From: an uncultured Anaerolineae bacterium
Lineage (GTDB): Bacteria; Chloroflexota; Anaerolineae; Anaerolineales; Villigracilaceae
DNA length: 64,000 nt
Direction of reading: 5' to 3'
Assembly: GCA_903875215.1 (NCBI GenBank)
Contig: CAIQVH010000016.1
Span: forward strand, 186,001 to 250,000
A program made the translations under genes and the position numbers. Positions 14,907 through 61,489 of the stretch are shown piece by piece. The notes beneath the pieces are model-generated. The model did no database searches. It saw only the letters and a program-made list of their open reading frames with translations, and was not told the DNA's origin. Every line of letters begins with the position of its first letter. The stretch's first letter is position 1.

Positions 14907-14915
14907 AGCATCGCC

Positions 14916-43920: not shown

Positions 43921-45063
43921 CTACAGGCTGCGCACCAGGGAGGTTTGCAGGGCTTGGACGACGCTGAGCACGTCCTCATCTTTCATGGCCGGGTAGAGCG
44001 GCAGGGTGATTTCGCGGCTGGCGATTTCTTCAGTGACGGGCAGATCTGCGCCCCTGCCAGGTTTTTGATAGGCGCTGAAGGTATGGATGGGCGGATAATG
44101 GATGCTGGTCTGGATGCCCTGGGCTTTGAGGGCTTCCATCACGGAGATACGGTCCCAATTGGGCGGCAGCAGGGCCGGCAGGATGTGGCACGAGGATGTT
44201 CCGGGGTGTTGCTCGAAGGGCAGGCTGATCTCTGGGGTGAGGGCCTGGAGGGCGACGCGATAGGTCCCGGTCAGCGCGCGGCGGCGGGCGTTGTTGCGTT
44301 CCAGCTTTTTGAGTTGTGCCAGCCCCAGCGCGGCGCGGATTTCGTCGATGCGGTAGTTGTAGCCCAGTTCGGTCACGTCATAGCTCCAGGCATGGCCTTT
44401 GTGTCGATCCCAGGTGAGTGTGGTCATGCCGTGCGAGCGCAGGGCGCGCAGTTTTTCAAACAGTTCCGGGCTGTCGGTGGTGAGCATGCCGCCTTCGCCG
44501 GTGGTCATGTTTTTATTGGAGAAGAAGCTGAAACAGCCGATTTCGCCCCAGGTGCCGAGCTGGCGCGCCTCCAGACTGGCACCGACGCCGTGGGCGTTGT
44601 CTTCGATGACAAGCAGGTCGTGGCGGCGGGCGATTTCCAATACGCGGGGCATATCCACCGGGTAGCCGGCGTAGTGGACGACGATGATGGCGCGCGTTCT
44701 GGGGCTGAGGGCGTTTTCGATCGAGAGCGGGGAGATGTTGAAGTTGTTGGTGCCGCACACATCTGCAAAGATGGGGGTAGCGCCAACATAGCGGACGGCG
44801 TTGGCGGTGGCGACAAAGGTCAGGGATGGGACGATGACTTCGTCACCGGGGCCGAGACCGAGCGCCAGGCAGGCCATGTGCAGGGCGGCCGTGGCGTTGG
44901 CTACGCCGAGGGCGTAGTGTGCGCCGGTGTAGGCGGCAAAAGCCTGTTCAAATTCCTGGGTGATGGCGCCCATTGTCAGCCAGCGGCTGGTGATGACAGA
45001 TTGGACGGCGTCGGCTTCTTCGGGGCCGAAGTCAATATCGGAGAGGGGAATGCGCCAGTTCAT
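43921..45063 (-). CDS. DegT/DnrJ/EryC1/StrS family sugar aminotransferase
   Basis: These PLP enzymes aminate keto-sugar nucleotides. The 380-residue protein has the fold-type I set: GVANATAALHMACLAL, DEVIVPSLTFVATANAV, EDNAHGVGAS with the PLP-pyridine Asp155, and the Schiff-base Lys184 in FSFFSNKNMTTGEGG. In keeping with the group, the C-terminal half has HYPPIHTFSAYQ. Its stop lies at the operon end; its start overlaps the nucleotidyltransferase stop by 4 bases. Together with the LegB-type dehydratase it would give an amino-deoxy sugar nucleotide. Confidence 0.93.
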   Translation of the reverse strand: MNWRIPLSDIDFGPEEADAVQSVITSRWLTMGAITQEFEQAFAAYTGAHYALGVANATAALHMACLALGLGPGDEVIVPSLTFVATANAVRYVGATPIFADVCGTNNFNISPLSIENALSPRTRAIIVVHYAGYPVDMPRVLEIARRHDLLVIEDNAHGVGASLEARQLGTWGEIGCFSFFSNKNMTTGEGGMLTTDSPELFEKLRALRSHGMTTLTWDRHKGHAWSYDVTELGYNYRIDEIRAALGLAQLKKLERNNARRRALTGTYRVALQALTPEISLPFEQHPGTSSCHILPALLPPNWDRISVMEALKAQGIQTSIHYPPIHTFSAYQKPGRGADLPVTEEIASREITLPLYPAMKDEDVLSVVQALQTSLVRSL

Positions 45064-45779
45064 GTGTGTTGCTCCTCGGGTAGGAATTGTGATCGCATTT
45101 GTTCAAAGTCGTGGGCGGCTTGTTCGTAATCATCGGGGCGGCCTAAATCTTGCCAGTAGCCGCTGAATTCGTAGCCGACTACTTTTTCGCGGGCGGAGAT
45201 CAGTTTTTTGACCAGGTCGGGGAAGTCGAGATATTGACCGATTGGGATGTAGTCGAGCACGCGCGGCTCGAAGACGTAAACGCCCATGCTGACACAGTAA
45301 TCGTAGGTGGGTTTTTCGATGTAGCCGTTAATCTGTGGCCGGCCATCCCATTCAATTACGCCCAGGTCTATTTTTACTGTGCGACGGTGTACGGCGATGC
45401 TGGCGAGGGCGCTCTGTTGCCGATGAAATTGGATCAGTTCGGCGAAGGGGAGCGTGGTGAGCACGTCGCCGTTGATGACGAGGAAGGGTTCATCCAGGTC
45501 TTTGATCAGGGCAATTGGCCCGGCGGTGCCGAGCGGGCTTTTTTCGTAGCTGTAAGTGATTTCCAGCCCCCATTGGTGGCCATCCTGGAAGAAGGCCCGC
45601 AGCAGTTCGGACAGGTGCCCGACCGTCAGGATGACCTGGTCTATGCCGGCCAGTTTCATTTGCCGCAGGATGACTTCCAGGATGGGTGAATCGCCGATGG
45701 GCATTAAAGGTTTGGGCAGGATTTTGGTATACGGTGCAAGCCGTGTTCCTTTGCCCCCTGCCAGCACTACCGCTTTCAT
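45060..45779 (-). CDS. Sugar-nucleotide nucleotidyltransferase (RmlA/RfbF-like)
   Basis: The 239-residue protein activates a sugar 1-phosphate with a nucleoside triphosphate. The signature GGKGTRLAPYTKILPKPLMPI is at residues 8-28, and VINGDVLTT supplies the metal-binding Asp. No C-terminal left-handed helix or acetyltransferase extension is present. ATG 45779 is used (AGGAGG upstream); an in-frame TTG six bases earlier is less likely. It overlaps the aminotransferase start by 4 bases and follows the dehydratase by 26, so all three are one operon. The sugar is unknown. Confidence 0.93.
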   Translation of the reverse strand: MKAVVLAGGKGTRLAPYTKILPKPLMPIGDSPILEVILRQMKLAGIDQVILTVGHLSELLRAFFQDGHQWGLEITYSYEKSPLGTAGPIALIKDLDEPFLVINGDVLTTLPFAELIQFHRQQSALASIAVHRRTVKIDLGVIEWDGRPQINGYIEKPTYDYCVSMGVYVFEPRVLDYIPIGQYLDFPDLVKKLISAREKVVGYEFSGYWQDLGRPDDYEQAAHDFEQMRSQFLPEEQHT

Positions 45780-45805
45780 GGTCAACCTCCTCTAAAATGA
45801 CAACC

Positions 45806-46801
45806 CTAAAATTCGTATACTCCAACCCGGTATTGATCCAGGTTGTGACGGATCCACTGGATGGTTTGCTCCAGGCCCTGGTCGAGGTCAATTTCTGGTT
45901 GCCAGCCCAGTGACTGGCGGGCCAGAGAATTGTCCGAGATCAGGCGGAAGACCTCCGAAGCGGCCGGCCGGAGCCGCCCGGTGTCGACCTCCACCTGTAC
46001 CGGGCGGTTGACCCGGGCGACGATTTTTTCCACCAGTTCACCAATGCGGATCTCGAAGCCGGTTCCCAGGTTGATGGTCTGACCTTCCACGCCGGGCGCC
46101 TGGGCACCGAGCAGGAACCCGTTGACGGTATCCTGCACGAAGGTGAAATCACGTGTCGTGTTCAGGTTGCCCAGCTTGATGACCGGCTGGGTCAGCGCCT
46201 GGGTGATGATGGTTGGGATGACGGCGCGCGCCGACTGGCGCGGCCCGTAGGTGTTGAAGGGGCGGATGGTGACAACTGGCAGGTTATAGGCGCTAAAAAA
46301 ACTCTCGGCCAGCTTATCTGCGCCGATTTTGCTGGCCGAATAGGGTGACTGCCCCTGGAGAGGGTGCGCCTCGCTGATTGGGGTTTGCCGCGCGGTGCCA
46401 TAGACTTCGCTGGTGGAGGTGTGCACCAGCCGCTCGACGCCCAGGTCGCGGCAGGCCAGCAGGATGTTGAGCGTGCCGAGCAGGTTGGTCTGCGCCACTT
46501 CCACGGGGTGGTGGTAAGAATATGGGATGGAGATGAGCGCTCCCAGGTGCAGGACGATCTGGCAGCTGCGCACTGCCTGCCGGACGGCGTCTTCATCCCG
46601 CAGGTCGCCGCCGACGAGTTCGACAGCTGCCCGCACATCCGGGTCGGTAAATTTGAGCAATCCCGGGTCGGCGCGCGAGTTGTAGCGCACAAAGGCGCGC
46701 ACCTGCGCCCCTTGTTCGACCAGTTTTTCAACCAGGTGGCTGCCGATGAAGCCGCCGGCGCCGGTGACCAGTACCTTTTTATTGTGCCAGGGCATATTCA
46801 T
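45806..46801 (-). CDS. NAD-dependent 4,6-dehydratase of LegB type
   Basis: LegB enzymes convert UDP-GlcNAc-type sugars to 4-keto-6-deoxy forms. The 331-residue short-chain dehydrogenase has the NAD motif VTGAGGFIGSHLVEKLVEQG (about 12-30), YNSRADPG, LIALG-like LGALISIPYSYHHP, TSTSEVYGTARQTPISEAHPL and the catalytic Y-x3-K in SPYSASKIGADKLA, followed by RPFNTYGPRQSARAVIPTIITQ. These match the LegB group closely rather than GDP-mannose dehydratases. Its start lies inside the C-terminal coding region of the phosphoglycosyl transferase fusion (23-base overlap), so all four genes are one transcription unit. Confidence 0.9.
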   Translation of the reverse strand: MNMPWHNKKVLVTGAGGFIGSHLVEKLVEQGAQVRAFVRYNSRADPGLLKFTDPDVRAAVELVGGDLRDEDAVRQAVRSCQIVLHLGALISIPYSYHHPVEVAQTNLLGTLNILLACRDLGVERLVHTSTSEVYGTARQTPISEAHPLQGQSPYSASKIGADKLAESFFSAYNLPVVTIRPFNTYGPRQSARAVIPTIITQALTQPVIKLGNLNTTRDFTFVQDTVNGFLLGAQAPGVEGQTINLGTGFEIRIGELVEKIVARVNRPVQVEVDTGRLRPAASEVFRLISDNSLARQSLGWQPEIDLDQGLEQTIQWIRHNLDQYRVGVYEF

Positions 46802-48839
46802 GATGACTGTGATCCTTGAGAAGGGTTCGTTTTTGGTAGCAATCGGTCATATCCAGCGGCCCGGAATTTTCGAGTGTATCAGCCTCGAAAATTCCCAGGC
46901 TGGCATCCAGGCTGAATTTGCGCCCATTCAACTGCAACGGTTGCAGCAGGCTGTCGTAGATGCGGCGCGCGATCAGGGTGGTTTCAGATTGTCGGGCCAG
47001 GTGTTCCAAGATCAGTGTGAATTGGTGGTCGCTGGTGCGTGCCAGGGTGTCGCTTTCTCGCTTGCAGAGCATCAGGCGCTGGGCCACCAGGATCAGCAGT
47101 TCGTCGCCATATTTATGGCCGAGAATGTGATTGATGTCTGCCAGGCTGGGCAGGTCGATGAACAGGATGGCGACTCGCGTGTCGTAGCGGCGCGCATAGG
47201 AAATGGAGTGTTGCAGTCGTTCTTGCAGCAGGTAGCGGTTGGGGAGTTGGGTGGTGATGTCGTGGATGGCTTTAAACTCCAGGTGGTCGAGTCGCCAGGC
47301 TGGAGGGCTTGAATTCTGCCGGGGTTGTGTGACTTGTTTATCCACCAGGTTCAGCAAATCATCCAGAAAAACCAGCCGCAGGCCGGTTGAGCGGCACAGG
47401 TCGAAGATGTATTCATCCACTGTGGGGTTGGTGGCTGGTATGGTGGATAAGATGACACCGATATCCTGTTTTTTGATAATGACGGGCAGATCCAGCAGCC
47501 CGCCGAGAATTGGCGTGCCCCCAATGCGCAGGCCGTGCAGGGTGGGGTCAATCTCATCGACGATGCCGATGATCGAAAACGCTGTGCGAAAGATGCGTCG
47601 CTTGAGCAGCCATCCGGCAATCTGGCTGCCTTCGCCGGCGCCGACAATCAGCACCCGCTCGCCGAGTTTCAGGCGATCCTGGCGCAGATTCAGCCAGCGA
47701 TTGGCCAGCCCGGAAATCACGCGCAGACGGTATCGGGCCACGATAAACCCAACCAGGGCCAGCATATTGATGATGATCAGCATGCTGGCGGGGAAGTCTG
47801 GAAAGGTCAGAAAGTTCGCGATGCGGTTGCTTTCACAGATCAATAAGACGAAGCAGGAGGTCAGACTGCCAGAGAGCAGCAGCCCCAGCCCGTCTTCTGC
47901 GCTGGAGCGTGACCATAAGATGCGGTTCTGGCCGGAGATGGTATTCAAGCTGCTGAAGAGCAGGGTGATGAGCAGGCTGAGTACTGCGAGGGCATTTAAT
48001 CCCCAGGAGGCGGATTCTGGCGGCCAAAAGATACTGACCAACCCTACGGAGCAGGCTGCCACGAGAAAATCCACGATGAACCAGTTGGCGTAGCGGTGCA
48101 CGAAGCGTGAGAACGGCCCGGCAAACAGGTACCCTTCCGGGATCTGGGTGCTCGTCAGGCGTGGGATCAGGATGGCCATCGTCCAGAAGAGGATATCCAA
48201 ATCGGTTGAAAAGGAAGGGTAGCGGACATACAGGCGATCCAGACGCATTTTATTGGGGAGGATGCTCTGCAAGTAGTCTTCCATCAGGCTGCCCGGGCTG
48301 AGATGTTTTTCCTCGTCATGGTACAGGATGCTGGCCGGGCTGGTAATGCCAGGGCGGACGGACAGGATTTCGCGGTGGGCTTCTTCTGGCCAGTGTTTGG
48401 CAATTTCCACATCTTCCGGGCGCGGGCCGACCAGGCTCATGTCTCCGGTCAGCACATTCCAGAGCTGGGGCAATTCGTTGATCTTGGTATAGCGCAGCCA
48501 TGCCCCAAGCGGGGTGATGCGGCTGTCTCCTTCGGCGGTGACGCGCGGGCCGGCATAACTCTCCGGGCGTTCATACATCGTGCGAAATTTTAATATCCTG
48601 AATGGCTTGCCGTTTCGGCCGGCGCGAGTCCCCCAAAAGAAGATCGGGCCGGGCGAATCCCGTTGAATCAGCAGTGCGATCAGCGTCAGAAAAGGGGCCA
48701 GGATGATGATCCCGAACGCAGACAGGCTGATATCAAACAGGCGTTTGATCGTGCTTTTTAAGAATTTCAGGGCAGGGTGGAACCTGGCGGTTTCCTCGCG
48801 CGCTGCTGGTTGTGCAATTGTCGTTTGGGTGCGCACCAT
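46779..48839 (-). CDS. Permuted phosphoglycosyl transferase fused to Rossmann and degenerate GGDEF domains
   Basis: The 686-residue membrane protein begins with a bacterial sugar-transferase (polyprenyl-phosphate phosphoglycosyl transferase) domain, residues 26-230, containing FRILKFRTMYERPESYAGPRV and KINELPQLWNVLTGDMSLVGPRPED. The catalytic acidic dyad reads Asn121-Glu122, not the usual Asp-Glu. Then come four membrane helices (about 253-375), a CoA-binding-like Rossmann segment (GERVLIVGAGEGSQIAGWLL, 393-500) and a GGDEF domain (520-655). In WbaP-type enzymes the membrane and Rossmann parts precede the transferase, so this order is permuted. The GGDEF active site is lost (RTSDHQF), but R594-x-x-D597 matches the c-di-GMP I-site. 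ATG 48839 has AGGGAGG upstream. Confidence 0.9.
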   Translation of the reverse strand: MVRTQTTIAQPAAREETARFHPALKFLKSTIKRLFDISLSAFGIIILAPFLTLIALLIQRDSPGPIFFWGTRAGRNGKPFRILKFRTMYERPESYAGPRVTAEGDSRITPLGAWLRYTKINELPQLWNVLTGDMSLVGPRPEDVEIAKHWPEEAHREILSVRPGITSPASILYHDEEKHLSPGSLMEDYLQSILPNKMRLDRLYVRYPSFSTDLDILFWTMAILIPRLTSTQIPEGYLFAGPFSRFVHRYANWFIVDFLVAACSVGLVSIFWPPESASWGLNALAVLSLLITLLFSSLNTISGQNRILWSRSSAEDGLGLLLSGSLTSCFVLLICESNRIANFLTFPDFPASMLIIINMLALVGFIVARYRLRVISGLANRWLNLRQDRLKLGERVLIVGAGEGSQIAGWLLKRRIFRTAFSIIGIVDEIDPTLHGLRIGGTPILGGLLDLPVIIKKQDIGVILSTIPATNPTVDEYIFDLCRSTGLRLVFLDDLLNLVDKQVTQPRQNSSPPAWRLDHLEFKAIHDITTQLPNRYLLQERLQHSISYARRYDTRVAILFIDLPSLADINHILGHKYGDELLILVAQRLMLCKRESDTLARTSDHQFTLILEHLARQSETTLIARRIYDSLLQPLQLNGRKFSLDASLGIFEADTLENSGPLDMTDCYQKRTLLKDHSHHEYALAQ

Positions 48840-49092
48840 TCCAACCTCCCTGGTGACTGGTGATTTCACTGATGACGCTTACGGTGGGTTTCAAAGCTTG
48901 TCTTTATGAGTATTCATCAGCCGGTCTTTTGGCTGATACTGAAAAAGTCCGCCCTGGCAAAGTCATCGACCTTGCAAATCTGTAATGTAAAATCATTATA
49001 TGCCGTTGAAGTAAAAATACAAGGGGGTTCCAGAGTCATTCCTCGGGCCAGGCGGGGGCTGATTTTTCGATTAATTACCTCCTGTAGAGACC
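48840..49092. other. Divergent intergenic region with leader of the phosphoglycosyl transferase gene
   Basis: The minus-strand promoter at 48995-49022 predicts a leader of about 150 bases for the transferase-GGDEF mRNA. The leader contains the hairpin ATCAGCC-N8-GGCTGAT (48916-48937). I do not recognise a riboswitch; it does not show the conserved core of GEMM c-di-GMP sensors, though a covariance search is worth doing. Confidence 0.4.
48995..49022 (-). promoter_or_regulatory. Promoter of the phosphoglycosyl transferase operon
   Basis: On the minus strand TTGTAT (49017-49022) and TATAAT (48995-49000) are separated by 16 bases. Confidence 0.55.
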
Positions 49093-49164: not shown

Positions 49165-49845
49165 ATGTTGGAGAACGTCGGATTGAGTTTCCATTTGTTG
49201 CTCGAATCAATCGCAGAAGGCAAGCTGATACACCTGTTCCACCAGCAGGTTTTCCGGAGCCGGCTGATCACCCCGGTGGTGATGGATTTAACCGTGTTAG
49301 ACCCGGCCCAGGATCCACTGCGAGGCACGGAATGCAGTTTTATCGAGTTGGATCTGGATCAAATCCGGGCGGGTATATATTCTTTTGCAGTTAAAAGCCG
49401 CCGCTTTAAGGCCTTCCGGAACATCCGCCGCGGTATGCGTGGCTTTGCGCTGGTCAAGGATGGGCGCGTGCTGGGCGATCTGTGGTGTCTGGCTCCTCGC
49501 GAGAAAGGGCGTCGGGTGCAGCATCCCGATCTGGACATGCTGAAGATTATCTGCGCGGAAGGCGAAGCCTACGCCCAGGACATGTTGATTGACCCGGCGT
49601 ATCGGGGCAAAAACCTGGCAGTGCCGCTTTTGCGTTCGCTGCACCTGGAGCTAAAAAAAGAAGGTTGGCGCAAAGTCTACGGCTGTTTTTGGGACGATAA
49701 TATTCCGGCCATGTGGATGCATCGCATGCTCAAGTTCAAGGAATTGCCGAAGTGCCGCGTCTCCCGGTTTTTTCGGTGGATTAGAAGCGAATCGCAGCCT
49801 CAGCCTGGCCTCAGCGCGGATTACGCCGAAAATTGCTCTCAATAA
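49165..49845 (+). CDS. GNAT-fold acyltransferase
   Basis: The 226-residue protein has an N-terminal region of about 60 residues and then a GNAT core: GFALVKDGRVLGDLWCLAP strand, AEGEAYAQDMLIDPAYRGKNLAVPLLRSLHLELKKEGWRKVYGCFWDDNIPAMWMHRMLKFKEL, with the RxxxxA/G-type acyl-CoA pyrophosphate loop in YRGKNLAVPL. It belongs to the group found in polysaccharide loci that N- or O-acylate sugars, but the acceptor is unknown. It has its own promoter and terminator and lies directly upstream of the ACP operon, so it may transfer an acyl group made there. Confidence 0.82.
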   Translation: MLENVGLSFHLLLESIAEGKLIHLFHQQVFRSRLITPVVMDLTVLDPAQDPLRGTECSFIELDLDQIRAGIYSFAVKSRRFKAFRNIRRGMRGFALVKDGRVLGDLWCLAPREKGRRVQHPDLDMLKIICAEGEAYAQDMLIDPAYRGKNLAVPLLRSLHLELKKEGWRKVYGCFWDDNIPAMWMHRMLKFKELPKCRVSRFFRWIRSESQPQPGLSADYAENCSQ

Positions 49846-49880
49846 AAGAATCTGGTCGCTCACTGGCCAGATTCTTTCTT
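49846..49880 (+). terminator. Rho-independent terminator between acetyltransferase and ACP genes
   Basis: A 10-bp stem AAGAATCTGG (49846-49855) / CCAGATTCTT (49867-49876) ends in TTTCTT. It directly follows the acetyltransferase stop codon. Confidence 0.85.
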
Positions 49881-49950: not shown

Positions 49951-50199
49951 ATGGATACAAAAAACGCCATCCGTGATTTCATCACCCATGAAATGCTGCG
50001 TCACGCCCTCGAAACCCCCCTCGGCGATGACGACCAGCTCGTCGAATCGGGCATCATCGATTCCCTGGGAGTCATGACTCTCTTGAGCTTCCTCGAAGAA
50101 CGGTACGCCCTCCAAATCTCCGGTGACGATCTAATCCCAGACAATTTCTCCTCCATTTCCAGCATCGCCAGCCTGGTGGAAATGCGGCGCACCAGCTAG
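49951..50199 (+). CDS. Acyl/peptidyl carrier protein
   Basis: The 82-residue protein is a stand-alone carrier protein whose Ser38 (in GIIDSLGVMTLLSFLEERYAL) is the expected phosphopantetheine site. The DSLG motif, surrounding acidic residues and length match acyl/peptidyl carrier proteins used with adenylation enzymes. AGGAGG lies eight bases before the ATG. It leads a four-gene operon with an acyl-CoA dehydrogenase, an adenylation enzyme and an amidohydrolase, so it probably carries an aminoacyl or acyl group through their reactions. No dedicated phosphopantetheinyl transferase is in the window. Confidence 0.92.
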   Translation: MDTKNAIRDFITHEMLRHALETPLGDDDQLVESGIIDSLGVMTLLSFLEERYALQISGDDLIPDNFSSISSIASLVEMRRTS

Positions 50200-50208
50200 G
50201 AGCCGGCT

Positions 50209-51354
50209 ATGAACTTTACTTTTACCCCCGACCAGGTCGCGATGCGCAAGACCATCGTCGACTTTGCCCGCCAGGAACTCAACCCCGGCGCCGCGGAAAG
50301 GGATCGTCAGAGCCTTTTTTCGCGGCAGCTGTGGGATAAATGCGCCGCCATGCACCTGCTGGCGCTGCCCTTCCCCGAACAATATGGCGGCGACGGCTTT
50401 GATTTTGTCACCACGGTGGCGGTTTACCATGCGCTCGGCTACGCCTGCAAAGACGCCGGCCTGTTGCATGCCCTCACCGCCCAGCTGATTTGCGGACTGC
50501 AGATCGTTTTATTCGCCAGCGATGAGCAGAAAGCCGCGCTGTTGCCCGACCTCGCTGCGGGCCGCCTGATCTACGCCCAGGCCATGACCGAACCCGGCTC
50601 CGGTTCAGATGCCTTTGCCATGCACACCAGCGCCCAAAAAACCGAATCGGGCTACCTGCTCAATGGCGCCAAGACCATGATCAGCAACGCCCCGGTCGCC
50701 GACCGCGTGCTGCTCTTTGCCGTCAGCGACTCAGAAAAGAAAGCGTTTGGCGGCATCTCCTGCTTCATCGTTGCCCGTGACGCGGCGGGCTTTTCCGCCG
50801 GCAAAGCCATGGACAAGCTCGGCCTGCGCACCCTGACCAACGGCGAACTGGTCTTCAGCGACTGCCAGGTGCCCGCCTCAGCCCTGATCGGGCGCGCCGG
50901 GCAGGGCGCCATGCTCTTCACCGAAGCCATGGAATGGGAACGCACCCTCATCCCGGCCTGCCTGCTTGGTGAACAGGAGCGCATCCTCGAGGAATCTGTC
51001 CGCTACGCCCGCGAAAGGCGCGCCTTTGGACAGTCGATCGGCGAATTTCAGGCCGTGGCGCACAAACTGGCCCGCATGAAAATGAACGCCGAATTGGGCG
51101 CGCTGGCCCTTTACAGCGCCGCCGCTCTCAAAGATCAACACAAACGTGCCGCGCTGGAAACTTCCACCGCCAAATTGTTCATCAGCGAAAGCCTGAAACA
51201 GGCCGCCCTGGACGCGGTTCAACTGCGCGGAGGCTATGGTTACATGACCGAGTACGAGGCCGAGCGCGAACTGCGCGACAGCATTGCCTCCACCCTCTAT
51301 TCCGGCACATCAGAAATGCAACTCAACCTGATTGCCCGGCTGACCGGAGTGTGA
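50209..51354 (+). CDS. Acyl-CoA dehydrogenase family flavoenzyme, probably acting on carrier-bound substrate
   Basis: The 381-residue FAD enzyme has the family motifs AQAMTEPGSGSD (124-134), RRAFGQSIGEFQ (270-280) and LRGGYGYMTEYEAERELRD. The residue at the catalytic-base position of medium-chain enzymes is Ser365 (LYSGTSEMQ, not YEGT), but Glu244 in MEWERTLI sits where isovaleryl-CoA dehydrogenase keeps its base. That pattern, with a length near 380, also fits prolyl-S-carrier dehydrogenases (PltE/RedW type). It starts 9 bases after the carrier gene and ends 3 bases before the adenylation gene. Substrate is unproven. Confidence 0.9.
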   Translation: MNFTFTPDQVAMRKTIVDFARQELNPGAAERDRQSLFSRQLWDKCAAMHLLALPFPEQYGGDGFDFVTTVAVYHALGYACKDAGLLHALTAQLICGLQIVLFASDEQKAALLPDLAAGRLIYAQAMTEPGSGSDAFAMHTSAQKTESGYLLNGAKTMISNAPVADRVLLFAVSDSEKKAFGGISCFIVARDAAGFSAGKAMDKLGLRTLTNGELVFSDCQVPASALIGRAGQGAMLFTEAMEWERTLIPACLLGEQERILEESVRYARERRAFGQSIGEFQAVAHKLARMKMNAELGALALYSAAALKDQHKRAALETSTAKLFISESLKQAALDAVQLRGGYGYMTEYEAERELRDSIASTLYSGTSEMQLNLIARLTGV

Positions 51355-51357
51355 CCC

Positions 51358-52959
51358 ATGCGCGCGCACCTCGGGCAGGATTACCTGGCGCACGCCGCGG
51401 CGCGCCACCCGCAAAAATGCGCCGTCACCGACGGGCGGACGGCGCTTACTTTTGAGACGCTGGCGAGCGAGTCAAATTTGCTGGCCAGCTTTCTCGGGGC
51501 CATCGGCATCGCACGCGGCGAGCGCGTGGCCTATTTCCTTAAACGCAGTCCTGCCTGCCTGACGGCCACCCTCGGCATTCTCAAGGCGGGCGCAGCCTAC
51601 GTCCCGCTCGACCAAAAAACTCCGCCCGAGCGCTGGAAACAAATCATGGCAGACGCCGCGCCGCGCGCCATCCTTTGCGGCACCGAAACACTCTCTGCCG
51701 CGCTTGAACGGGCTGCCAGCCTCGATTTTTCCCCAACCCTGATCTGCCTCGACGAGAGCCACAGCCTTTCTCCCCGCGTCGAGCGGCTTTTTTATCGCGA
51801 AGAGCTGGCTGCCACCGCCGGCTGGCCAGTCCCCAGCGACCTGACCGCGGACGATATCGCTTACGTCCTCTATACCAGCGGCTCCACCGGCGCCCCGAAA
51901 GGCGTCATGGTCACGCATCGCAACCTGACCAACTACATTGATTGGGCGCGGGAGTACTTTCATCTCACCGCCGCTGACCGCATCCTGGGAACTGCCCCAT
52001 TTTATTTTGACATGTCCGTCTTTGACATATTCTGCGCCCTGGCAGCTGGTGCCACCTTTAGCCTGGCTACCGACGAACAGCTGCTCTTCCCCGAAAAGCT
52101 GGTGCGTTTCATGGAACAGGAACAGATCAGCGTCTGGAAGGGCGTTTCCTCGCTGCTGATGTATCTCAGCCGCGCCGGCGTGTTGCGGCCGGGCCGCCTG
52201 CCTCATCTGCGGACAGTCATCTTTGCTGGTGAGCCGCTCGACGTGCAGTATGTGCGTGCCTGGCAATCTGCGCTTCCAGCGGCGGCTTTCTACAACGGCT
52301 ACGGCCCCACCGAAGCCACCGGCGTTTCGCTCTGTCATCCGGTGACGGAACTGCCCGAAGCGGGCCAGCCCATCCCGATTGGGAAACCATGCAAGGGGGC
52401 ATCCGTTCTGCTGATTGACGAAAATGACCATCTGGTGGCGCCCGGCCAGGTTGGTGAGCTGTGCATCGCCGGTGAATGCCTGGCGGCAGGTTATCTCAAC
52501 GACCCGGAAAAAACCCGTTTGCGCTTTACGCCCCCGCCGCCGGGCTGCGAGGTGGGGCCGCGCATCTACCGTACCGGTGATTTATGCCGCCAGACCCCGC
52601 AGGGCGAGTATGTCTTTGTTGCGCGCAAAGATCACCAGGTGAAGTGGATGGGGTATCGGATTGAATTGGGCGAGATTGAGGCCCATATGCTGGCGCATCC
52701 CCAGGTGCGCTGCGCGGTGGCTTTGCTGGTTGGGGCCGGGAACGGCGGGCTGACTGAGTTGGCGGCCTGCTTCGAGGCGGAAGGCCAGCTGGAGCCGGGG
52801 GTTTTGTCGAAGTTTCTCGAAAAAAGACTGCCTTTTTACATGCTTCCCAGACGCTTTATCCAACTGGAGACCATTCCTCGCAATGACCGTGGAAAAATTG
52901 CGCGCGAGCAACTTGCAGAGTGTCTGGCCCAGCGGGCCGGGGAGGGCCATGGTGCGTAA
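51358..52959 (+). CDS. Stand-alone amino-acid/acyl adenylation enzyme
   Basis: The 533-residue ANL-family enzyme activates a carboxylic acid as the adenylate and loads it on a carrier protein. Adenylation core motifs are in order: VLYTSGSTGAPKG (A3, about 171), FYFDMSVFDIF (A4, about 215), YNGYGPTEATG (A5, about 314), YRTGDLCR (A7/A8, about 404) and NDRGKIAREQL (A10 Lys, about 512). The sequence between A4 and A5 resembles amino-acid-activating (NRPS/DltA-like) enzymes rather than fatty-acyl ligases. A manual specificity reading gives roughly D-M-F-S-I-A-G-G-V-K, not a standard proline code. It follows the dehydrogenase by 3 bases and overlaps the next gene by 11. Confidence 0.9.
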   Translation: MRAHLGQDYLAHAAARHPQKCAVTDGRTALTFETLASESNLLASFLGAIGIARGERVAYFLKRSPACLTATLGILKAGAAYVPLDQKTPPERWKQIMADAAPRAILCGTETLSAALERAASLDFSPTLICLDESHSLSPRVERLFYREELAATAGWPVPSDLTADDIAYVLYTSGSTGAPKGVMVTHRNLTNYIDWAREYFHLTAADRILGTAPFYFDMSVFDIFCALAAGATFSLATDEQLLFPEKLVRFMEQEQISVWKGVSSLLMYLSRAGVLRPGRLPHLRTVIFAGEPLDVQYVRAWQSALPAAAFYNGYGPTEATGVSLCHPVTELPEAGQPIPIGKPCKGASVLLIDENDHLVAPGQVGELCIAGECLAAGYLNDPEKTRLRFTPPPPGCEVGPRIYRTGDLCRQTPQGEYVFVARKDHQVKWMGYRIELGEIEAHMLAHPQVRCAVALLVGAGNGGLTELAACFEAEGQLEPGVLSKFLEKRLPFYMLPRRFIQLETIPRNDRGKIAREQLAECLAQRAGEGHGA

Positions 52960-54100
52960 TCCTGCTGCGCTGCTGTGCTGGTCGAGCGAAATCGGCCGGG
53001 ACCATCCTTTTTTGGATTTTCACACTCATCCGTTTGATGTGCTGCGCGGGGAGATTGCCTATCAACCGGGCGCTGCGACCGCGGGGTTGTTCACCGCCGG
53101 AATGACCTGTTATCACGCTCCGGTGTTGGCTGCCGAACCCGGCCTGGAGGCGCGCCCTCTGCCGGCGGCGGCCCAGTCGGAGCGTGGGTTGCTGTTGGCG
53201 GCGCGCCTGGTCTATGCCCATACCGGCCCCAGAGTATTTGCCGACCAGCTGGCGTTGGTGCCTGTGGCGGGAGCGCTGCTGCTGCCGGTTGCGCGCGCTC
53301 CGGGCCAGGCCGGGCTTTTGCTGGAGGCACAGGCCGAGATGTTTGGCGGGGAGCCGCGCTGGGTGCCGGGCTGTCCCTTCCCGGTTGGGGCGGCGCCGGA
53401 TGAGCTGGAGCCTTTTTTCAGGCAGGCGCGCACCAGGCAGGGCATACGGGTCATCAAGGTTCATCCCAACTTGAGTAATCTCAATCCTCGCGGCGCGGTG
53501 GGCGGGGAATTGTTGGAGGCGACTCTGGCGGCGGCAGGCGCATTGAACCTGGCGTTGGTGCTGCATACCGGGCGCACGCCGGGGCTGGAGCCGCCCGAAC
53601 AGCGCGAATTCAGTGCTCTTTCGCAGCTGGCCCAGGTGGATTGGAGCCTTTCTGCGGCGCCGGTCATTTTTGCGCATGCTGGTTGTTACGGCCTGGCCCC
53701 ATCGGAATGGCCGCAGGCTTTGCACAGGATGGCACGCCTGCTGGAGAAATACCCCAACCTGATGGCAGATACCTCCAACCTGGCGCCGGAAGCGCTGCAA
53801 CTGGTGCTGGCGAAACTGGACCCGGCCCGGCTGCTGTTTGGTTCGGATGCGCTCTACGTCCCGGTCTGGAAAGCCTGGCTGCAGTTTTTGGCCGCGCTCG
53901 AGCAGGTTTCTGCCAGCCCCGAACGCGACCTGATCCAGATTGCTTCGACAAATCCGCTGCGCTGCCTGGCCGCCACCGGGCTGGATTTTTCTCGGGCGAC
54001 AGCGGATTCGGCTCAATCCGCTTCTGGCGGGTTGCTGGTCGAAGCGGCCAGCACCGCCGGCAGCGACTGCCGTTCTGCGGGCAGCCGGCCATTCAAGTAG
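52949..54100 (+). CDS. Amidohydrolase-family (amidohydrolase 2) TIM-barrel protein
   Basis: The 383-residue protein has metal-binding DFHTHP near the N-terminus, IKVHPNL in the middle, FAHAGCYG and the late FGSDAL, the arrangement of amidohydrolase-2 (ACMSD/TatD-like) enzymes. The metal-free C-terminal tail is Ser/Ala-rich. The start is ATG 52949, overlapping the adenylation stop by 11 bases; GTG 52952 is equally spaced from the GGGAGG. As the last gene of the carrier-protein operon it could hydrolyse the carrier-bound product or a related lactone/amide. Its last 88 bases overlap the convergent acyltransferase gene. Confidence 0.85.
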   Translation: MVRNPAALLCWSSEIGRDHPFLDFHTHPFDVLRGEIAYQPGAATAGLFTAGMTCYHAPVLAAEPGLEARPLPAAAQSERGLLLAARLVYAHTGPRVFADQLALVPVAGALLLPVARAPGQAGLLLEAQAEMFGGEPRWVPGCPFPVGAAPDELEPFFRQARTRQGIRVIKVHPNLSNLNPRGAVGGELLEATLAAAGALNLALVLHTGRTPGLEPPEQREFSALSQLAQVDWSLSAAPVIFAHAGCYGLAPSEWPQALHRMARLLEKYPNLMADTSNLAPEALQLVLAKLDPARLLFGSDALYVPVWKAWLQFLAALEQVSASPERDLIQIASTNPLRCLAATGLDFSRATADSAQSASGGLLVEAASTAGSDCRSAGSRPFK

Positions 54101-54960
54101 AACCGGAAAACTCCCTCAGCTTTGGAAAGAGTGGGATTGTGTGGCAGGCATTTTTGGGCCAGTTGCAACAGATTATGACTCAGCGGGTTGACCCAGGGAC
54201 GTAAAAGCGGCGCGAGCAGGATGCGCTGGCGCACCGGGCGGGGAGTAAATCCCATGCGGAATTTATATTCATCCACGCTGGCGGGTGCATCCAGCGAGTG
54301 CAGCCCATAAAAAATGGAGCGCACCCCGGGTTGCAGCAACACTTCCGCGGCGACGACATATGTCAGGGCGTTGTTCACCCCAAAACGCAGGGAATCTGAC
54401 CGGCTTTGCTGGTAGAGGATGCAGTAGCAGTCCTCACACAGGAAGCTCAACAACGCCGCAGCCAGGCGCCCGTTGACCGTTGCGCCCCAGGCTTCAAAAC
54501 CTTCCAGCCCTGCAGCACTTAAACATAACTTCTGCCACCAGCTCTGCGATTCGGCCTGCGACCGGCCCTGGCGAAGCAACGTTTCTTGGCGCAGATCCCA
54601 GCCTTCTTCGGCCAGGCGCGCAAAAGAAATGGGTTCAATGACCGCCATGGAAAGACCTTTTTTTACGTCGTGGCGGGCCTTTTTGGAGAGATCCAGCTGT
54701 GAATAAGGCCGGCGCTCCAGCACGACATGGTAACTCAAACTGCCGAGCGGCGCCTCGACCGGCGTGGAAAACCGCAGCGCGGTGAGATGCTGCTCGCGCA
54801 GAAACTGTTCGGTTTCTGCCTCGTCAGGTGTTCGCACGGTGTGGAAGGGGATTGCCTGGTACGTCCCCAGCCCGGCGCTGGCCCAGCTTCCGGCCGCAGA
54901 GTGGAGCACGGAAACTCCCCGGCGGCGCAGCCATTCTGACAGGATTTCTCTTTCTGCCAT
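54013..54960 (-). CDS. GNAT/FemAB-like acyltransferase
   Basis: The 315-residue protein resembles the acetyltransferase group with FemAB-like fold: YHVVLERRPYSQLDLSKKARHDVKKGLS in the first half and WGATVNGRLAAALLSFLCEDCYCILYQQSRSD, YVVAAEVLLQPGVRSIFYGLHSLDAPASVDEYKFRMGF in the second. Such proteins add amino acids or acyl groups to sugars or peptides. ATG 54960 has AGGGGA upstream; the longer frame has no support. Its C-terminal 88 bases are antisense to the amidohydrolase gene. It starts 23 bases after the GT4 stop and belongs to the minus-strand polysaccharide operon. Confidence 0.82.
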   Translation of the reverse strand: MAEREILSEWLRRRGVSVLHSAAGSWASAGLGTYQAIPFHTVRTPDEAETEQFLREQHLTALRFSTPVEAPLGSLSYHVVLERRPYSQLDLSKKARHDVKKGLSMAVIEPISFARLAEEGWDLRQETLLRQGRSQAESQSWWQKLCLSAAGLEGFEAWGATVNGRLAAALLSFLCEDCYCILYQQSRSDSLRFGVNNALTYVVAAEVLLQPGVRSIFYGLHSLDAPASVDEYKFRMGFTPRPVRQRILLAPLLRPWVNPLSHNLLQLAQKCLPHNPTLSKAEGVFRFYLNGRLPAERQSLPAVLAASTSNPPEAD

Positions 54961-54983
54961 TTTGTTTTTCCCCTGGGTGTTGA

Positions 54984-56234
54984 TCAGTTCTTCAGTCGCG
55001 GCTGACCATTTTTGATCGCGATCGCCTCGGTCAGCAGCTTTTCGACTTCCAGTGCGCCTGCCATGGGCGAGTGATGAGCTTCGGCCCACAGGCGGCCACG
55101 CCGCCCCAGCTCTGCGCACCGGGCTGGATCCTGCTTCAGATTCAACACGGCAGCTGCCAGCGCGGACGGATTCTCCGGCGGCACACAAACCCCGCCTCCT
55201 GAAAGATGAATCAGCTTCCAGGCTTCGCTGTCATCCTCCACACTGGCCAGCAACGGGCGGCCGCTGGCGAAGATCGAATAGGTTTTTGAAGGCAGTGACC
55301 GGCTTCCGATGCCGCGCTGCAAAGTGACCAACGAGAGATCGGCGCTGGCCAGCACCTCCGGCAGGCGCGGGCGGGGCTGGTAGGGCAGAAATTGCACATT
55401 TTCCAGCTGGCGGCGGGCCGCTTCGGCCATCAGGCTGGCGCGGCTGGCGCCATCGCCCACAAACACAAAGCGGATTTCCCGGTTGGCTCTGAGCAGGTCG
55501 GCGGCGGCCAGGATTTGTTCCAGCCCCTGCGAAAGGCCCAGGTTGCCGGCATACAGGACAACGAATTTTCCATCCAGGCCCTGTTCGCGGGCGAAGGCGT
55601 TGTTGCGGGGCAGGGGTTGAATCAGATGGGTATCCACCCAGTCGTAACCGTGAACCATTTTTCCGTCTGGTACGCCCATATCGCGCAGTTCGTCTCGAAA
55701 AGTTTCAGAAATAATGCGCACCAGTTGGGCGTGTTCCAGGCAATAACGTTCCATGCTGCTCACCAGCTTGATGATGGGTTTGTGCCGGAAGACGCCCAGC
55801 GCCACGCCCACGCCAGGATAAACGTCATACACGCCGTAAACGGCCGGCTTGTTTCGCAATCCGACCAGCGTGATGAATGGCAGCCAGGCCGATAGCGATG
55901 AACTGCCGGCGAAAACGACCTCATACTGCCGGCCCAACCCGGCCCAGGCGGCGCCCAGCTGGTATACCAGATATTGAATCAGGCGCTGGGGCAGGCGGGC
56001 CCGGTCAACCGAGGGCAGCCCGACCCGGATGACCTCGACGCCATTTTCTATTGTTCTGCCAAGCCAGGTGCCCCGATATTCGGGCGCTACACGCCCGGAA
56101 GGATAGTGCGGCACCATGGTGAGCATGGTGACCTGGTGCCCGCGTCTGACCAGGTTTTCGCACAGCATGGTAAAAATGGGCGCACTGGGCCCCAGATCTG
56201 GCTCATAATTTGCTCCAAAAATCAAAACACGCAT
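54984..56234 (-). CDS. Glycosyltransferase family 4 (WcaI-like)
   Basis: The 416-residue GT-B enzyme begins MRVLIFGANYEPDLGPSAPIFTMLCENLVRRGHQVTMLTMVPHYP, the start of the WcaI-like group, and has the sugar-donor end VVLYAGNLGLSQGLEQILAAADLLR, FVFVGDGASRASLM, LPSKTYSIFASGRPLLASV. No membrane helix is seen apart from a weakly hydrophobic surface. Its substrate is not predictable. It lies in the middle of the minus-strand polysaccharide unit, 16 bases after the GNAT gene stop. Confidence 0.92.
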   Translation of the reverse strand: MRVLIFGANYEPDLGPSAPIFTMLCENLVRRGHQVTMLTMVPHYPSGRVAPEYRGTWLGRTIENGVEVIRVGLPSVDRARLPQRLIQYLVYQLGAAWAGLGRQYEVVFAGSSSLSAWLPFITLVGLRNKPAVYGVYDVYPGVGVALGVFRHKPIIKLVSSMERYCLEHAQLVRIISETFRDELRDMGVPDGKMVHGYDWVDTHLIQPLPRNNAFAREQGLDGKFVVLYAGNLGLSQGLEQILAAADLLRANREIRFVFVGDGASRASLMAEAARRQLENVQFLPYQPRPRLPEVLASADLSLVTLQRGIGSRSLPSKTYSIFASGRPLLASVEDDSEAWKLIHLSGGGVCVPPENPSALAAAVLNLKQDPARCAELGRRGRLWAEAHHSPMAGALEVEKLLTEAIAIKNGQPRLKN

Positions 56235-57577: not shown

Positions 57578-59350
57578 TTACTCCCCGGCTTTGACCCCGG
57601 TATGGAAGCCGGGGTAATAATTTTGCCAGCGCCACGGGATGCGGTTCAGCACCACACCAACCAGGTGCGCTCCCACACGCTGAAGGTGGGCTACTGCCTC
57701 CTGCGCAGTTTCTTTTTGCGTGGTGCCGGGCTGCAGGACCAGCAGGACCGCATCCACCCGCGAAGCAAAGGCCAGTGTGTCGGCGGAAAATAGCGCCGGG
57801 CCGTTCAGGATCAGCAGTTCAGCGCTCTTGTTGAGCCGGGTCAGTACCGCGGCGAGACGCTCGGATTCAAGTTTTTCTGTCAGGCTGGCGGGCAGGTTTC
57901 CGGCGGTGACTGCCGAGGCTGCCGGGATATTCTTGAGCGGGATGGCGGCACTCGCAGCGGGTTCCTCTGCGGTCAGGCTGTCTCCCAGACCGGTGGAATT
58001 TTCTATTTGCAGGTAGTGATGCAGTTGCGGGTCGCGCACATTGGCATCCACGATGGTTACTTTCTTTCCGAGGGCGCTGAAACTGGCCGCCAGGTTCACT
58101 ACCAGCATGGTGCGGCTTTCTTTTTCTCCGGGGCTGACCACCAGCAAGGTGCGGAGATGTTTGCCCTTTTCGGAGTGCAGGATGTTCTTACGCAAAATCC
58201 GTAATGCGTCCGAGACGGCGGAGTTGGGATGATCGAGAAAATGGATGGCTCCATGCCGGCTCTGCCGGAATTTGGGGAGGCATCCGATGGTGGGCAGACT
58301 CAGCAGGCTTTCCACCTCGCCCGGCGATTTGACCGTGTTATCGAGGAATTCGAGTGCAATGGCGCCGCCGGCGGACAGGAACAACCCGGCCAGTGTCGCA
58401 AGGGCGATGATAACCGGGGCTGAGAAATTGGTCGGCTCTTCGGGCAGGATCGCTGATTCAATCTCTGCGATGTTGGGTGAAAGCTGCAGGCGCATCAGGC
58501 GGACGGATTCCAGGTTGCTGAGCAGGCTTAAATAGAGCTGTTCGTACAATTTCAAGGTGGATTGCAGTTGAACCAGCCGTGGATTTTCGTTGCCCGATAC
58601 CCCGGTCTGGCTGGCGACGCCCAGCAGGGCCAGGTTGGAGCGAATTTGCTGGTAGAACAGGAGCCGTGGCTCAATTTGAGCCAGTTGTGCTTGCTTGATG
58701 TTCAGTTCGGCCCGTTTTTCCACATCGTACAACGGGTTGATTCGGGCAATGTCGGCCTGTAGAGTGGCGATTTCTTTCTGAAATTCGGCAATCTGCGCGT
58801 CAATTTCTGCAATGTGGCCCTGGATATCCTGCTGGGTGCCGGTATCGTAAGCGGTGCGCAGCGAGTCCATTTGTTTTTTAATCTGCTCCACCTGCCGGTT
58901 CAGGTTGTTTTCGGCGGAGGCGTACTTGGCGCTCTGCAGGCGCTCACTTTGCGTCAACAGGTTCGAGACCAGCGCGTTGGCAATATCTCTGGCCAGCCGG
59001 GGATCGCTGTGGTTGACCGCAATTTCAATGATCTGGGTATCCAGCACCTGGTTGACATCAATGGATTTGACGTCGATTTCTGTGCCCACCTGTGCGGCAG
59101 TGGCTTCCAGGATGGAACGCGATTTCAGGAGCTGAACATAGGTAGAGACCAGCTGCTGTCCGCTCAGATAGCCTAGATCCAGATTGCTGTTTTGTGGGTT
59201 GTCCTGCGAAACCAGGATGCGAGCTTTGGCCTGATAGTTTGGAACTTGATAAGTTGCCAGGGCGATGCCGGCGGCGGCCCCCAGGATCAGACCGAGGATC
59301 AGCAGCCAGAGCCATTTGCCAGCCAGCATAAAAGTGTGTTTGGTATTCAT
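57578..59350 (-). CDS. Wzz/BY-kinase-like polysaccharide co-polymerase with degenerate ATPase
   Basis: The 590-residue protein has an N-terminal membrane helix (WLWLLILGLILGAAAGIAL), a periplasmic coiled coil (about 120-300), a second helix (310-335) and a cytosolic BY-kinase-like domain (350-590), the Wzc/CpsCD arrangement. The ATPase is degenerate: the Walker A stretch SPGEKESRT (406-414) has Glu411 in place of the Lys, and the Walker B position is Asn516 (LLILNGP). DAN at 435-437 replaces Walker A'. A C-terminal tyrosine pair (578-579) is present but no tyrosine cluster. It should regulate chain length rather than act as a kinase. Confidence 0.9.
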   Translation of the reverse strand: MNTKHTFMLAGKWLWLLILGLILGAAAGIALATYQVPNYQAKARILVSQDNPQNSNLDLGYLSGQQLVSTYVQLLKSRSILEATAAQVGTEIDVKSIDVNQVLDTQIIEIAVNHSDPRLARDIANALVSNLLTQSERLQSAKYASAENNLNRQVEQIKKQMDSLRTAYDTGTQQDIQGHIAEIDAQIAEFQKEIATLQADIARINPLYDVEKRAELNIKQAQLAQIEPRLLFYQQIRSNLALLGVASQTGVSGNENPRLVQLQSTLKLYEQLYLSLLSNLESVRLMRLQLSPNIAEIESAILPEEPTNFSAPVIIALATLAGLFLSAGGAIALEFLDNTVKSPGEVESLLSLPTIGCLPKFRQSRHGAIHFLDHPNSAVSDALRILRKNILHSEKGKHLRTLLVVSPGEKESRTMLVVNLAASFSALGKKVTIVDANVRDPQLHHYLQIENSTGLGDSLTAEEPAASAAIPLKNIPAASAVTAGNLPASLTEKLESERLAAVLTRLNKSAELLILNGPALFSADTLAFASRVDAVLLVLQPGTTQKETAQEAVAHLQRVGAHLVGVVLNRIPWRWQNYYPGFHTGVKAGE

Positions 59351-61473: not shown

Positions 61474-61489
61474 TTTCCCCCTGCCTGGT

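Follow-up and report, generated by a model that had tools for sequence, protein, structure and literature searches.

A carrier-protein cassette conserved in polysaccharide loci of an Anaerolineae family is predicted to build an unusual acyl group for an amino sugar

A compact operon was found on the forward strand of a 64,000-nucleotide stretch of DNA from an uncultured Anaerolineae bacterium of the family Villigracilaceae (GenBank assembly GCA_903875215.1, contig CAIQVH010000016.1, positions 186,001 to 250,000). This whole stretch, here called the window, is G000:C16:186001-250000 in our numbering; its source genome, G000, comprises 3.77 Mb in 38 contigs. Open reading frames (ORFs) were read as a stand-alone acyl carrier protein (ACP), an acyl-CoA-dehydrogenase-like oxidase (ACAD; P0002), a stand-alone amino-acid adenylation domain (P0003) and a PF04909 amidohydrolase, and a GNAT-family gene upstream proved to be the conserved first member of the unit. 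On balance, we favor the reading that this cassette builds an unusual acyl group on its carrier and attaches it to an amino sugar of the exported polysaccharide. The features of the cassette are as follows.

49165..49845, forward strand: GNAT-family N-acyltransferase, first cassette gene (PF00583, 21.1 bits; cut-off 20.7)
49845..49877, forward strand: 14-bp hairpin between the GNAT and ACP genes, a possible attenuator or terminator, its stem not followed by a clear T tract
49951..50199, forward strand: stand-alone acyl or aminoacyl carrier protein (GIIDSLG, with Ser38 as the phosphopantetheine site)
50209..51354, forward strand: predicted ACAD-family aminoacyl-carrier-protein oxidase (FAD), with Glu244 as base and Ser365 at the base position of medium-chain acyl-CoA dehydrogenase (MCAD)
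51358..52959, forward strand: stand-alone amino-acid adenylation domain (pocket DMFKIAGGVK, with Lys513 as the conserved lysine)
52949..54100, forward strand: PF04909 amidohydrolase-superfamily enzyme, proposed tailoring enzyme (ATG at 52949; listed ORF from 52883)

Family scans agreed with the ORF reading. The ACP matched PF00550 at 29.3 bits (cut-off 20.8) and its start is preceded by AGGAGG, the ACAD contained PF00441, PF02770 and PF02771, and the amidohydrolase scored 48.6 bits for PF04909 (cut-off 26.4). P0003 scored 295.9 for PF00501 and 399.1 for the amino-acid adenylation model TIGR01733, above the cut-off of 317.4. The ACP and ACAD genes are separated by 9 nt and the ACAD and adenylation genes by 3 nt; the adenylation and amidohydrolase genes overlap by 11 nt. 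The four-gene operon of the initial annotation was thereby borne out, with the addition of the GNAT gene, which lies upstream of the part that it covered. Its comparison of the first three genes with PltL/PltE/PltF also held, the best structural-database match of the ACAD being AnaB and that of the adenylation domain, among stand-alone ones, PltF. As it had also stated, no nonribosomal peptide synthetase (NRPS) or polyketide synthase (PKS) lies nearby: Pfam scans found none among 20 window proteins (39559-63992), PKS genes being sought in this region and not genome-wide. Across the whole genome, P0003 was the only one of 8 matches to exceed the TIGR01733 cut-off, and an NRPS fragment was rejected as an explanation on this ground. 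A phosphopantetheinyl transferase is present, in support of the favored reading.

When 152 genomes of the family were searched with the ACAD, seven gave matches at E <= 1e-85, and six of these, G000 included, were of the cassette type. P0002 was 67-76% identical to the other five cassette-type ACADs and 69.6-76.1% identical to those of the other four full cassettes. The order GNAT-ACP-ACAD-adenylation-amidohydrolase was the same in G000, G358, G462, G496 and G472, which are two genomes of one genus and three of another within the family; the recurrence of the same order and strand in five genomes, its own included, disfavors a chance arrangement. All five sets lie in polysaccharide loci, so the co-occurrence with glycan genes that the initial annotation had suggested looking for was found. 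The ACP was 57-70% identical in the five other loci (14683-14928 in G358). In the sixth genome, G364, the GNAT, ACP and ACAD genes were followed by a different adenylation domain (35% identical to P0003), and no amidohydrolase match was found from this domain to the contig end; this looks like a specificity change by the swap of one gene. In the amidohydrolase's place, L042 17450-18637 encodes a 395-aa protein that matched no Pfam or NCBIfam model. The seventh genome, G415 (47% identity), had another neighborhood with an ABC transporter, GDSL lipases and a methyltransferase; it may be of polysaccharide type too, as its ATPase has a Wzt_C domain. A scan of genome contigs with two peptide patterns, too narrow to show wider absence, recovered the five known other loci and two unrelated ACADs.

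The closest solved structure to the ACAD in the PDB search was the prolyl-ACP dehydrogenase AnaB (4irn, E 2.5e-94), and Bmp3 (6cxt) and PigA (5zw0) were also among the five best matches. Alignment with these three enzymes confirmed the initial placement of Ser365 (in YSGTSE) at the MCAD base position together with Glu244 (in MEWER). A passage of the chalkophomycin paper describes the glutamate at this position as essential in AnaB and Bmp3, and RedW, PltE and Bmp3 as removing four electrons from carrier-bound proline (PMC10849742). In a 28-row tree, P0002 and its five relatives formed a group (100/100) within a 16-row carrier group (100/99) that also held AnaB, Bmp3 and PigA and was separate from the CoA-type rows. 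Glu244 and Ser365 were present in 16 of 16 carrier-group rows. Most rows outside it had Gly or Ala at 244 and Glu at 365, the exceptions (244, 365) being L012 (Glu/Gly), L051 (Glu/Ala) and L006 (Met/Thr); because L012 and L051 carry Glu244 outside the group, this residue alone does not define it.

A 39-row tree, again with few outside sequences, was built after the long-branched rows L003, L006 and L051 had been dropped and 14 new rows added. The carrier-oxidase group then comprised 30 rows (100/99), leaving 9 rows outside it, of which 8 have CoA-type residues. The six cassette ACADs, united by a stem of 0.82, were placed next to a group of 24 rows (95/87) holding AnaB, Bmp3 and PigA, and thus outside the group of characterized prolyl oxidases in the strict sense. 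P0002 scored below the cut-offs of the PigA (348.7 of 500) and RedW (317.7 of 650) models, which weighs little, since the ACAD of a sister locus (see below) also missed these cut-offs (463.5 of 500). Judged by residues and tree position, the ACAD is a non-CoA enzyme, of a separate long-branched subfamily that groups with the carrier-bound prolyl oxidases. Of the likeness to prolyl oxidases proposed at the outset, the shared residue pattern was upheld, but the ACAD forms a sister subfamily outside the known prolyl enzymes. The family-specific residues F5, A52, H74, A272 and N293 could not be tied to a substrate.

The best stand-alone adenylation match of P0003 in the PDB was PltF (6o6e, 1.8e-79). 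P0003 scored far below the cut-offs of the DltA models (285.8 of 476; 276.5 of 559.85), on which ground DltA-like alanylation was rejected, and it reached 266.2 of 592.35 for TIGR03098. The comparison with PltF and DltA that had been proposed thus favored PltF, though with another pocket; and the outcome named beforehand as speaking against a pyrrole-type pathway, an ACAD among the CoA enzymes and an adenylation domain with DltA, did not arise. Pocket codes were read by ungapped motifs, with what we take to be the Stachelhaus position numbers. The P0003 pocket is DMFKIAGGV plus Lys513, identical in 5 of 5 cassettes save for one V/I exchange in G358. PltF has DLLYLALVCK, and P0003 shares two of nine positions with it (D235 and A301) and differs at seven, so that the PltF-type proline pocket (DLLYLALVC or close) is lacking; this difference makes pyrrole formation from proline a disfavored reading at the window. 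The pocket of the G364 domain reads DMFNLAMSS. An adenylation tree of 27 rows, few of them outside sequences, joined the five P0003-type domains in one group (100/100) whose stem measured 1.71. This group belonged to a larger set (98/96) that also held PltF, and the G364 domain fell elsewhere in that set at an unresolved position. Lys278 is associated with aspartate-type pockets; this association and a Thr-type code served as hints only. Because of Lys278, we lean toward a substrate with an acidic or otherwise carboxylate-bearing side chain as a hint from the pocket, and P0003 probably activates an amino acid other than proline.

The amidohydrolase retains the metal residues of the HxH...H...H...D pattern (H25, H27, H206, H243 and D300), as expected for PF04909, and these residues were invariant with K170 and H172 in five sequences. 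Its start overlaps the adenylation stop by 17 nt in G462, G496 and G472, and a 3-nt gap separates them in G358. The C-terminal 38 or so residues of the window protein, which overlap the convergent gene, are absent from the four homologues. A PDB sequence search gave no match at E 0.1. A structure model of low confidence (pLDDT 55.5, pTM 0.59) had the LigJ hydratase, a dihydroxybenzoate decarboxylase and ACMSD as its best Foldseek matches (E 2.8e-4 to 5e-3). In the VIA comparison of the same model, proteins of these types had a Z of about 9 and uncharacterized proteins, which took the top two places, scored higher (3irs, Z 12.1, rmsd 4.0, 189 aligned). The PF04909 gene accompanied the DMFKIAGGV-type pocket in 5 of 5 cases, and neither the surroundings of the G364 pocket nor the sister loci that were searched yielded it; its presence only with the Lys-containing pocket suggests that the enzyme acts on the side chain chosen by that pocket. 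The amidohydrolase profile matched 1 of 400 phylum-sampled genomes at E <= 1e-25 (its own), and a protein search matched 2 of 61 (its own and G358).

In 5 of 5 other loci, that of G364 among them, the gene immediately upstream of the ACP encodes a GNAT homologue of 45-60% identity. The AlphaFold model of the window GNAT (pLDDT 75.0) matched GNAT-fold acyltransferases, among them glucosamine N-acetyltransferase 5kga (Z 12.2, rmsd 3.4, 164 aligned), and the lipid-aminoacylating enzymes of this fold (MprF, A-PGS) ranked further down. We propose that the GNAT transfers the acyl group from the ACP to an amino sugar. A second GNAT paralogue without an ACP of its own was seen at the G358 cassette (L021 5804-6619). 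For the hairpin between the GNAT and ACP genes of the window, a 66-nt stretch gave a z of -4.23, with 0 of 200 shuffles equally stable; a scan for consensus promoters and terminators gave background levels and did not list it. If it is an attenuator, it would uncouple the transferase from acyl supply. In G462 the GNAT and ACP genes overlap by 4 nt.

The sugar acyltransferases and glycosyltransferases reported to flank the operon were recovered by family scans, and this context was conserved in the other cassette loci. The main flanking genes in the window are given below, with the identity of their G358 homologues where found.

43921..45063, reverse strand: DegT/PseC/ArnB-like NDP-4-amino sugar aminotransferase (PF01041, 401.7; PseC model, 369 of 423.5; 74%)
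45060..45785, reverse strand: sugar-1-phosphate nucleotidyltransferase (PF00483, 153 bits; 81%)
45806..46801, reverse strand: LegB-like NDP-sugar 4,6-dehydratase (TIGR04180, 419.2 of 475; 75%)
46779..48869, reverse strand: initiating sugar-phosphate transferase (PF02397, 181.9 bits) fused to a GGDEF domain with a signature, SDHQF, that is degenerate by eye
54013..55188, reverse strand: FemAB/Acetyltransf_6-like acyltransferase, convergent (PF13480, 20.5 bits, just under the cut-off of 22)
54984..56234, reverse strand: WcaI-like GT4 glycosyltransferase (from family scans; 63%)
57578..59350, reverse strand: Wzz chain-length regulator with a tyrosine-autokinase-like domain (PF02706, 41.8 over 25.5; TIGR01007, 90.4, under 108.05)

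The PF02397 initiating transferase and Wzz are both present, as expected for an exported polysaccharide locus, and further GT4 proteins, a GNAT and a hexapeptide transferase were found in the flanks. The PF02397-GGDEF fusion is kept in G358 (61% over 686 residues). Two large reverse-strand ORFs (59404-61548 and 62706-63992) matched no Pfam or NCBIfam model, and the second has a 45% homologue in G358. The FemAB-like gene probably has its real start inside the annotated one, judging from its homologues, which begin further in; two homologues of its product (54 and 43%) stand at the same place in G358. FemAB/Acetyltransf_6-like proteins were found in 6 of 6 cassette loci, and three such genes follow one another beside the G358 cassette (L021 8006-10955).

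All six cassette loci lie among polysaccharide genes whose further content differs. G358 retains the dehydratase, nucleotidyltransferase, aminotransferase, Wzz and glycosyltransferase (46-81% identity). The other four loci share a protein of about 407 aa adjoining the GNAT (one gene away in G364), which we take from its motifs to be CE4 deacetylase-like and which no model of Pfam or NCBIfam recognized. At a greater distance, a 35% aminotransferase match was obtained in G364 as well. In a tblastn control with seven glycosyltransferase queries, at least one match was obtained in the 20 kb of the window and in each of the other cassette-type loci (5 of 5), but in 0 of 5 stretches around the genome's six other ACADs and in 0 of 7 other carrier-type ACAD loci. 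These counts include self matches, since the queries had been drawn from the window, L040 and L082; the Pfam results are independent of that.

What was observed is the content, order and conservation of the genes, their family assignments, the catalytic residues and the polysaccharide surroundings. These observations can be joined into a scheme in which every reaction, substrate and acceptor is a prediction. The adenylation domain would activate an amino acid with ATP and load it on the Ser38-phosphopantetheine of the ACP. In the ACAD, Glu244 would take the alpha proton and a hydride would pass to FAD, giving an alpha,beta-dehydroaminoacyl-S-ACP (imine or enamine). The PF04909 enzyme would then tailor this intermediate; side-chain decarboxylation or hydration is a guess, made because the nearest characterized folds are of that kind and the gene is seen only with the Lys-containing pocket. 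Finally, the GNAT would move the acyl group to an amine. The amine could be supplied by the 4,6-dehydratase/aminotransferase pair in the window and G358, and in the four other loci probably by the deacetylase-like protein near the GNAT; the two amine routes fit an N-acyltransferase as the common first gene. Of the groups suggested in the initial annotation, the dehydro-amino-acyl group is thus the best reading, but a pyrrole derived from proline is not supported at this locus, given the DMFKIAGGVK pocket and the place of the ACADs outside the AnaB/Bmp3/PigA group.

Several points weigh against this scheme. Product, substrate and acceptor are all predicted from sequence. The six ACADs stand on a long stem outside the characterized enzymes, so aminoacyl-ACP oxidation is proposed from homology. 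The role of the amidohydrolase depends on a low-confidence model whose best VIA matches are uncharacterized, and the deacetylase was recognized by motif and not by any family model. The window hairpin could split the GNAT from the rest of the unit, and the FemAB-like proteins in all six loci could be the transferase in its place.

Related loci were found in other families of the order. A profile of the six ACADs, run on 400 genomes sampled from the larger membership of the order, gave matches at E <= 1e-100 in 25 of them, namely the six of the cassette type and 19 others. The contexts of 15 of these 19 were examined (G104, L025, included; G752, G772, G782 and G790 left out), some genomes being fragmentary. 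An adenylation match adjoined the ACAD in 14 of 15, of which L088, L089, L090 and L092 are truncated where the contig stops; in G104 no adenylation or ACP match was found within 16.7 kb. An ACP was present in 9 of the 14 sister loci. Acyl_transf_3-type homologues followed in eight (L081, L082, L083, L084, L085, L087, L091 and L093; PF01757 confirmed in L082, L084 and L085), and a flavin halogenase homologue stood beside the ACP in five (L081, L082, L084, L091 and L093). PF04820 was confirmed in L081, L082 and L084, and the one protein per locus examined in all five has WxWxIP and GxGxxG. For two of the five, the halogenase CmlS was the top NCBIfam match, with scores far below its cut-off (180.2 and 160.3 of 900). 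A halogenase homologue lay about 3 kb away in L094; none was seen in L083, L085 and L087. In G088, of the same class, one of two PF04820 proteins lacked WxWxIP.

The order GT4, glycosyltransferase, GT2, GT4, ACAD, adenylation, ACP, halogenase, two acyltransferases, epimerase, GT2 and sulfotransferase was common to three loci and was broken by one inserted gene each in L091 and L093. The conserved stretches are:

L082 7419-16889, conserved sister-locus stretch
L091 1891-10957, conserved sister-locus stretch
L093 2199-11572, conserved sister-locus stretch

A proline-type pocket was read in 10 of 11 sister adenylation domains (DLFYLALVC in nine, DLLYLALVC in G584); in the eleventh, G419, D, L, F, Y and L-A are in place and the motif for the last part was unmatched. 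Glycosyltransferase matches by tblastn were obtained in 10 of the 14 sister loci and in none of L084, L086, L092, L094 and L025. The contigs of G642 and G690 continue with a PF02397 sugar-phosphate transferase and a Wzz-like match; G642 also has a Wzy_C protein, its Wzz-like protein matching kinase-type Pfam families only, and G715 has a Wzz-domain protein. The best reading of the sister loci is that proline would be converted to pyrrolyl-S-ACP, halogenated in some, and then used for glycan O-acylation by the Acyl_transf_3 protein. In the clorobiocin pathway, pyrrolyl is described as passing from a carrier to the sugar noviose (PMC11218499), a direct precedent for such a transfer that also counts in favor of the window scheme.

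Second AMP-ligases of TIGR03098 type were found at sub-cut-off scores in G715 (464.2) and G642 (446.8 of 592.35). In L095 (11418-14913) and L097 (2-3518), a TIGR03098-like AMP ligase adjoins an asparagine-synthase-type, TIGR03108-like amidotransferase, so that such sister loci may carry two modules for acyl groups. Another branch of carrier-type ACADs had no adenylation match in the stretches examined (L096 9100-10248, L099 7649-8827 and L025 9872-11122); those of L096 (G715) and L099 (G711) are second ACAD copies with a Wzz-like gene near. A broader proposal, which we put forward tentatively as falling just short of an even chance, is that the order shares a so far unrecognized glycan decoration in which amino acids are oxidized in NRPS style on stand-alone carriers, with several families using pyrrolyl groups from proline, some of them with a flavin halogenase (chloro- or bromopyrrole on the polysaccharide), the window family using another amino acid with adenylation and oxidase subfamilies of its own, a PF04909 tailoring enzyme and a GNAT, and specificity swapped as a module, as in G364.

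Other explanations of the window operon were weighed against amino-sugar acylation. Proline might be loaded, oxidized to pyrrolyl-2-carboxyl-S-ACP and placed on the glycan of this locus, as could be expected from the closest solved relatives, AnaB and PltF, being prolyl enzymes, from the Glu244/Ser365 pattern in common with AnaB, Bmp3 and PigA, and from the proline-type code of nearly all sister adenylation domains. We consider this unlikely, given the seven of nine pocket positions at which P0003 departs from PltF, the place of the six ACADs outside the 24-row group of the three characterized prolyl enzymes, and the additional PF04909 gene fixed in 5 of 5 full cassettes; we know of no PF04909 gene in pyrrole pathways. 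The pyrrole version fits the sister loci much better than the window. It is also improbable that the operon makes a diffusible small molecule, such as a signal, a siderophore piece or an antibiotic building block, with its glycan location incidental. Elsewhere the three-gene set belongs to pathways for antibiotics, pigments and toxins, and in G279, G346 and G272 it is close to long NRPS-like ORFs with adenylation matches (1102, 1987 and 2329 aa), but in 6 of 6 genomes the cassette is placed among polysaccharide genes of otherwise differing content, always with a GNAT, and the source genome has no other adenylation domain above the TIGR01733 cut-off (PKS genes, as said, were sought only around the cassette).

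The transferase might instead be the FemAB-like protein, with a peptide, lipid or protein amine as acceptor. FemAB enzymes transfer aminoacyl groups, and their relatives lie near the cassette in every locus. FemAB-like proteins are a familiar part of exopolysaccharide loci at large (TIGR03019), however, and those near the cassette belong to at least two subfamilies, homologues of the window protein occurring only in G358 and another type in the four remaining loci; the GNAT, by contrast, always adjoins the ACP, and we give this explanation little credence. An ordinary CoA-thioester catabolic operon that came to lie here by chance would agree with the ACAD, AMP-ligase and amidohydrolase families being common in catabolism, but it is very improbable and was rejected on the operon's own ACP, the amino-acid adenylation model above its cut-off and the tree position of the ACAD, which lacks the MCAD-type base and stands apart from the CoA enzymes and the genome's own CoA-type paralogues.

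If amino-sugar acylation by the cassette is correct, antibiotic-type amino-acid chemistry would be used for bacterial surface polymers, and pyrrole sets, until now assigned to antibiotic and pigment pathways, would gain a structural role. Heteroaromatic, halogenated or dehydroaminoacyl groups would alter the charge, UV absorption, metal binding and enzyme resistance of the polysaccharide and give it reactive handles. Genome miners may mistake such loci for antibiotic clusters. The scheme also predicts a pocket code and an ACAD subfamily for a substrate that is probably not proline. A literature search, a weak negative as it covered open-licence papers only, found no description of such a system.

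Among known systems, the pyrrole sets of pyoluteorin (PltL/PltE/PltF), clorobiocin (CloN5/CloN3/CloN4) and anatoxin (AnaD/AnaB/AnaC), and Bmp1/Bmp3/Bmp4, have the same adjacent stand-alone ACP, ACAD and adenylation domain, with the ACAD Glu base and Ser at the MCAD position as in the window (gene names other than AnaB, PltF, PigA, Bmp1/Bmp3 and CloN3-5 are given as general background). The window differs from them in its non-proline pocket, its separate ACAD subfamily, the added PF04909 and GNAT genes and its place in a polysaccharide locus instead of an antibiotic cluster. DltA/DltC D-alanylation also puts an amino acid on a stand-alone carrier for a surface polymer, but without oxidation, and P0003 is not of the DltA type. 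The XrtA/PEP-CTERM module (TIGR03098 ligase, FemAB TIGR03019 and amidotransferase TIGR03108), the wider make-up of XrtA loci being taken as general background, resembles the window in that, within an exopolysaccharide locus, genes of FemAB-like and deacetylase-like type accompany an AMP-forming ligase; P0003, however, falls well short of TIGR03098, is of amino-acid type and has its own ACAD alongside. The viosamine island of Pseudomonas syringae (vioA, vioB, vioS, vioR, acp), is a precedent for the window scheme: an acyl group proposed to be built on an ACP is joined there to viosamine, a surface-glycan sugar of the NDP-4-amino-4,6-dideoxy type, through its amine (PMC3927599). In that island, 3-hydroxybutyryl is made by fatty-acid-type enzymes, whereas in the window an amino acid is proposed to be activated and oxidized.

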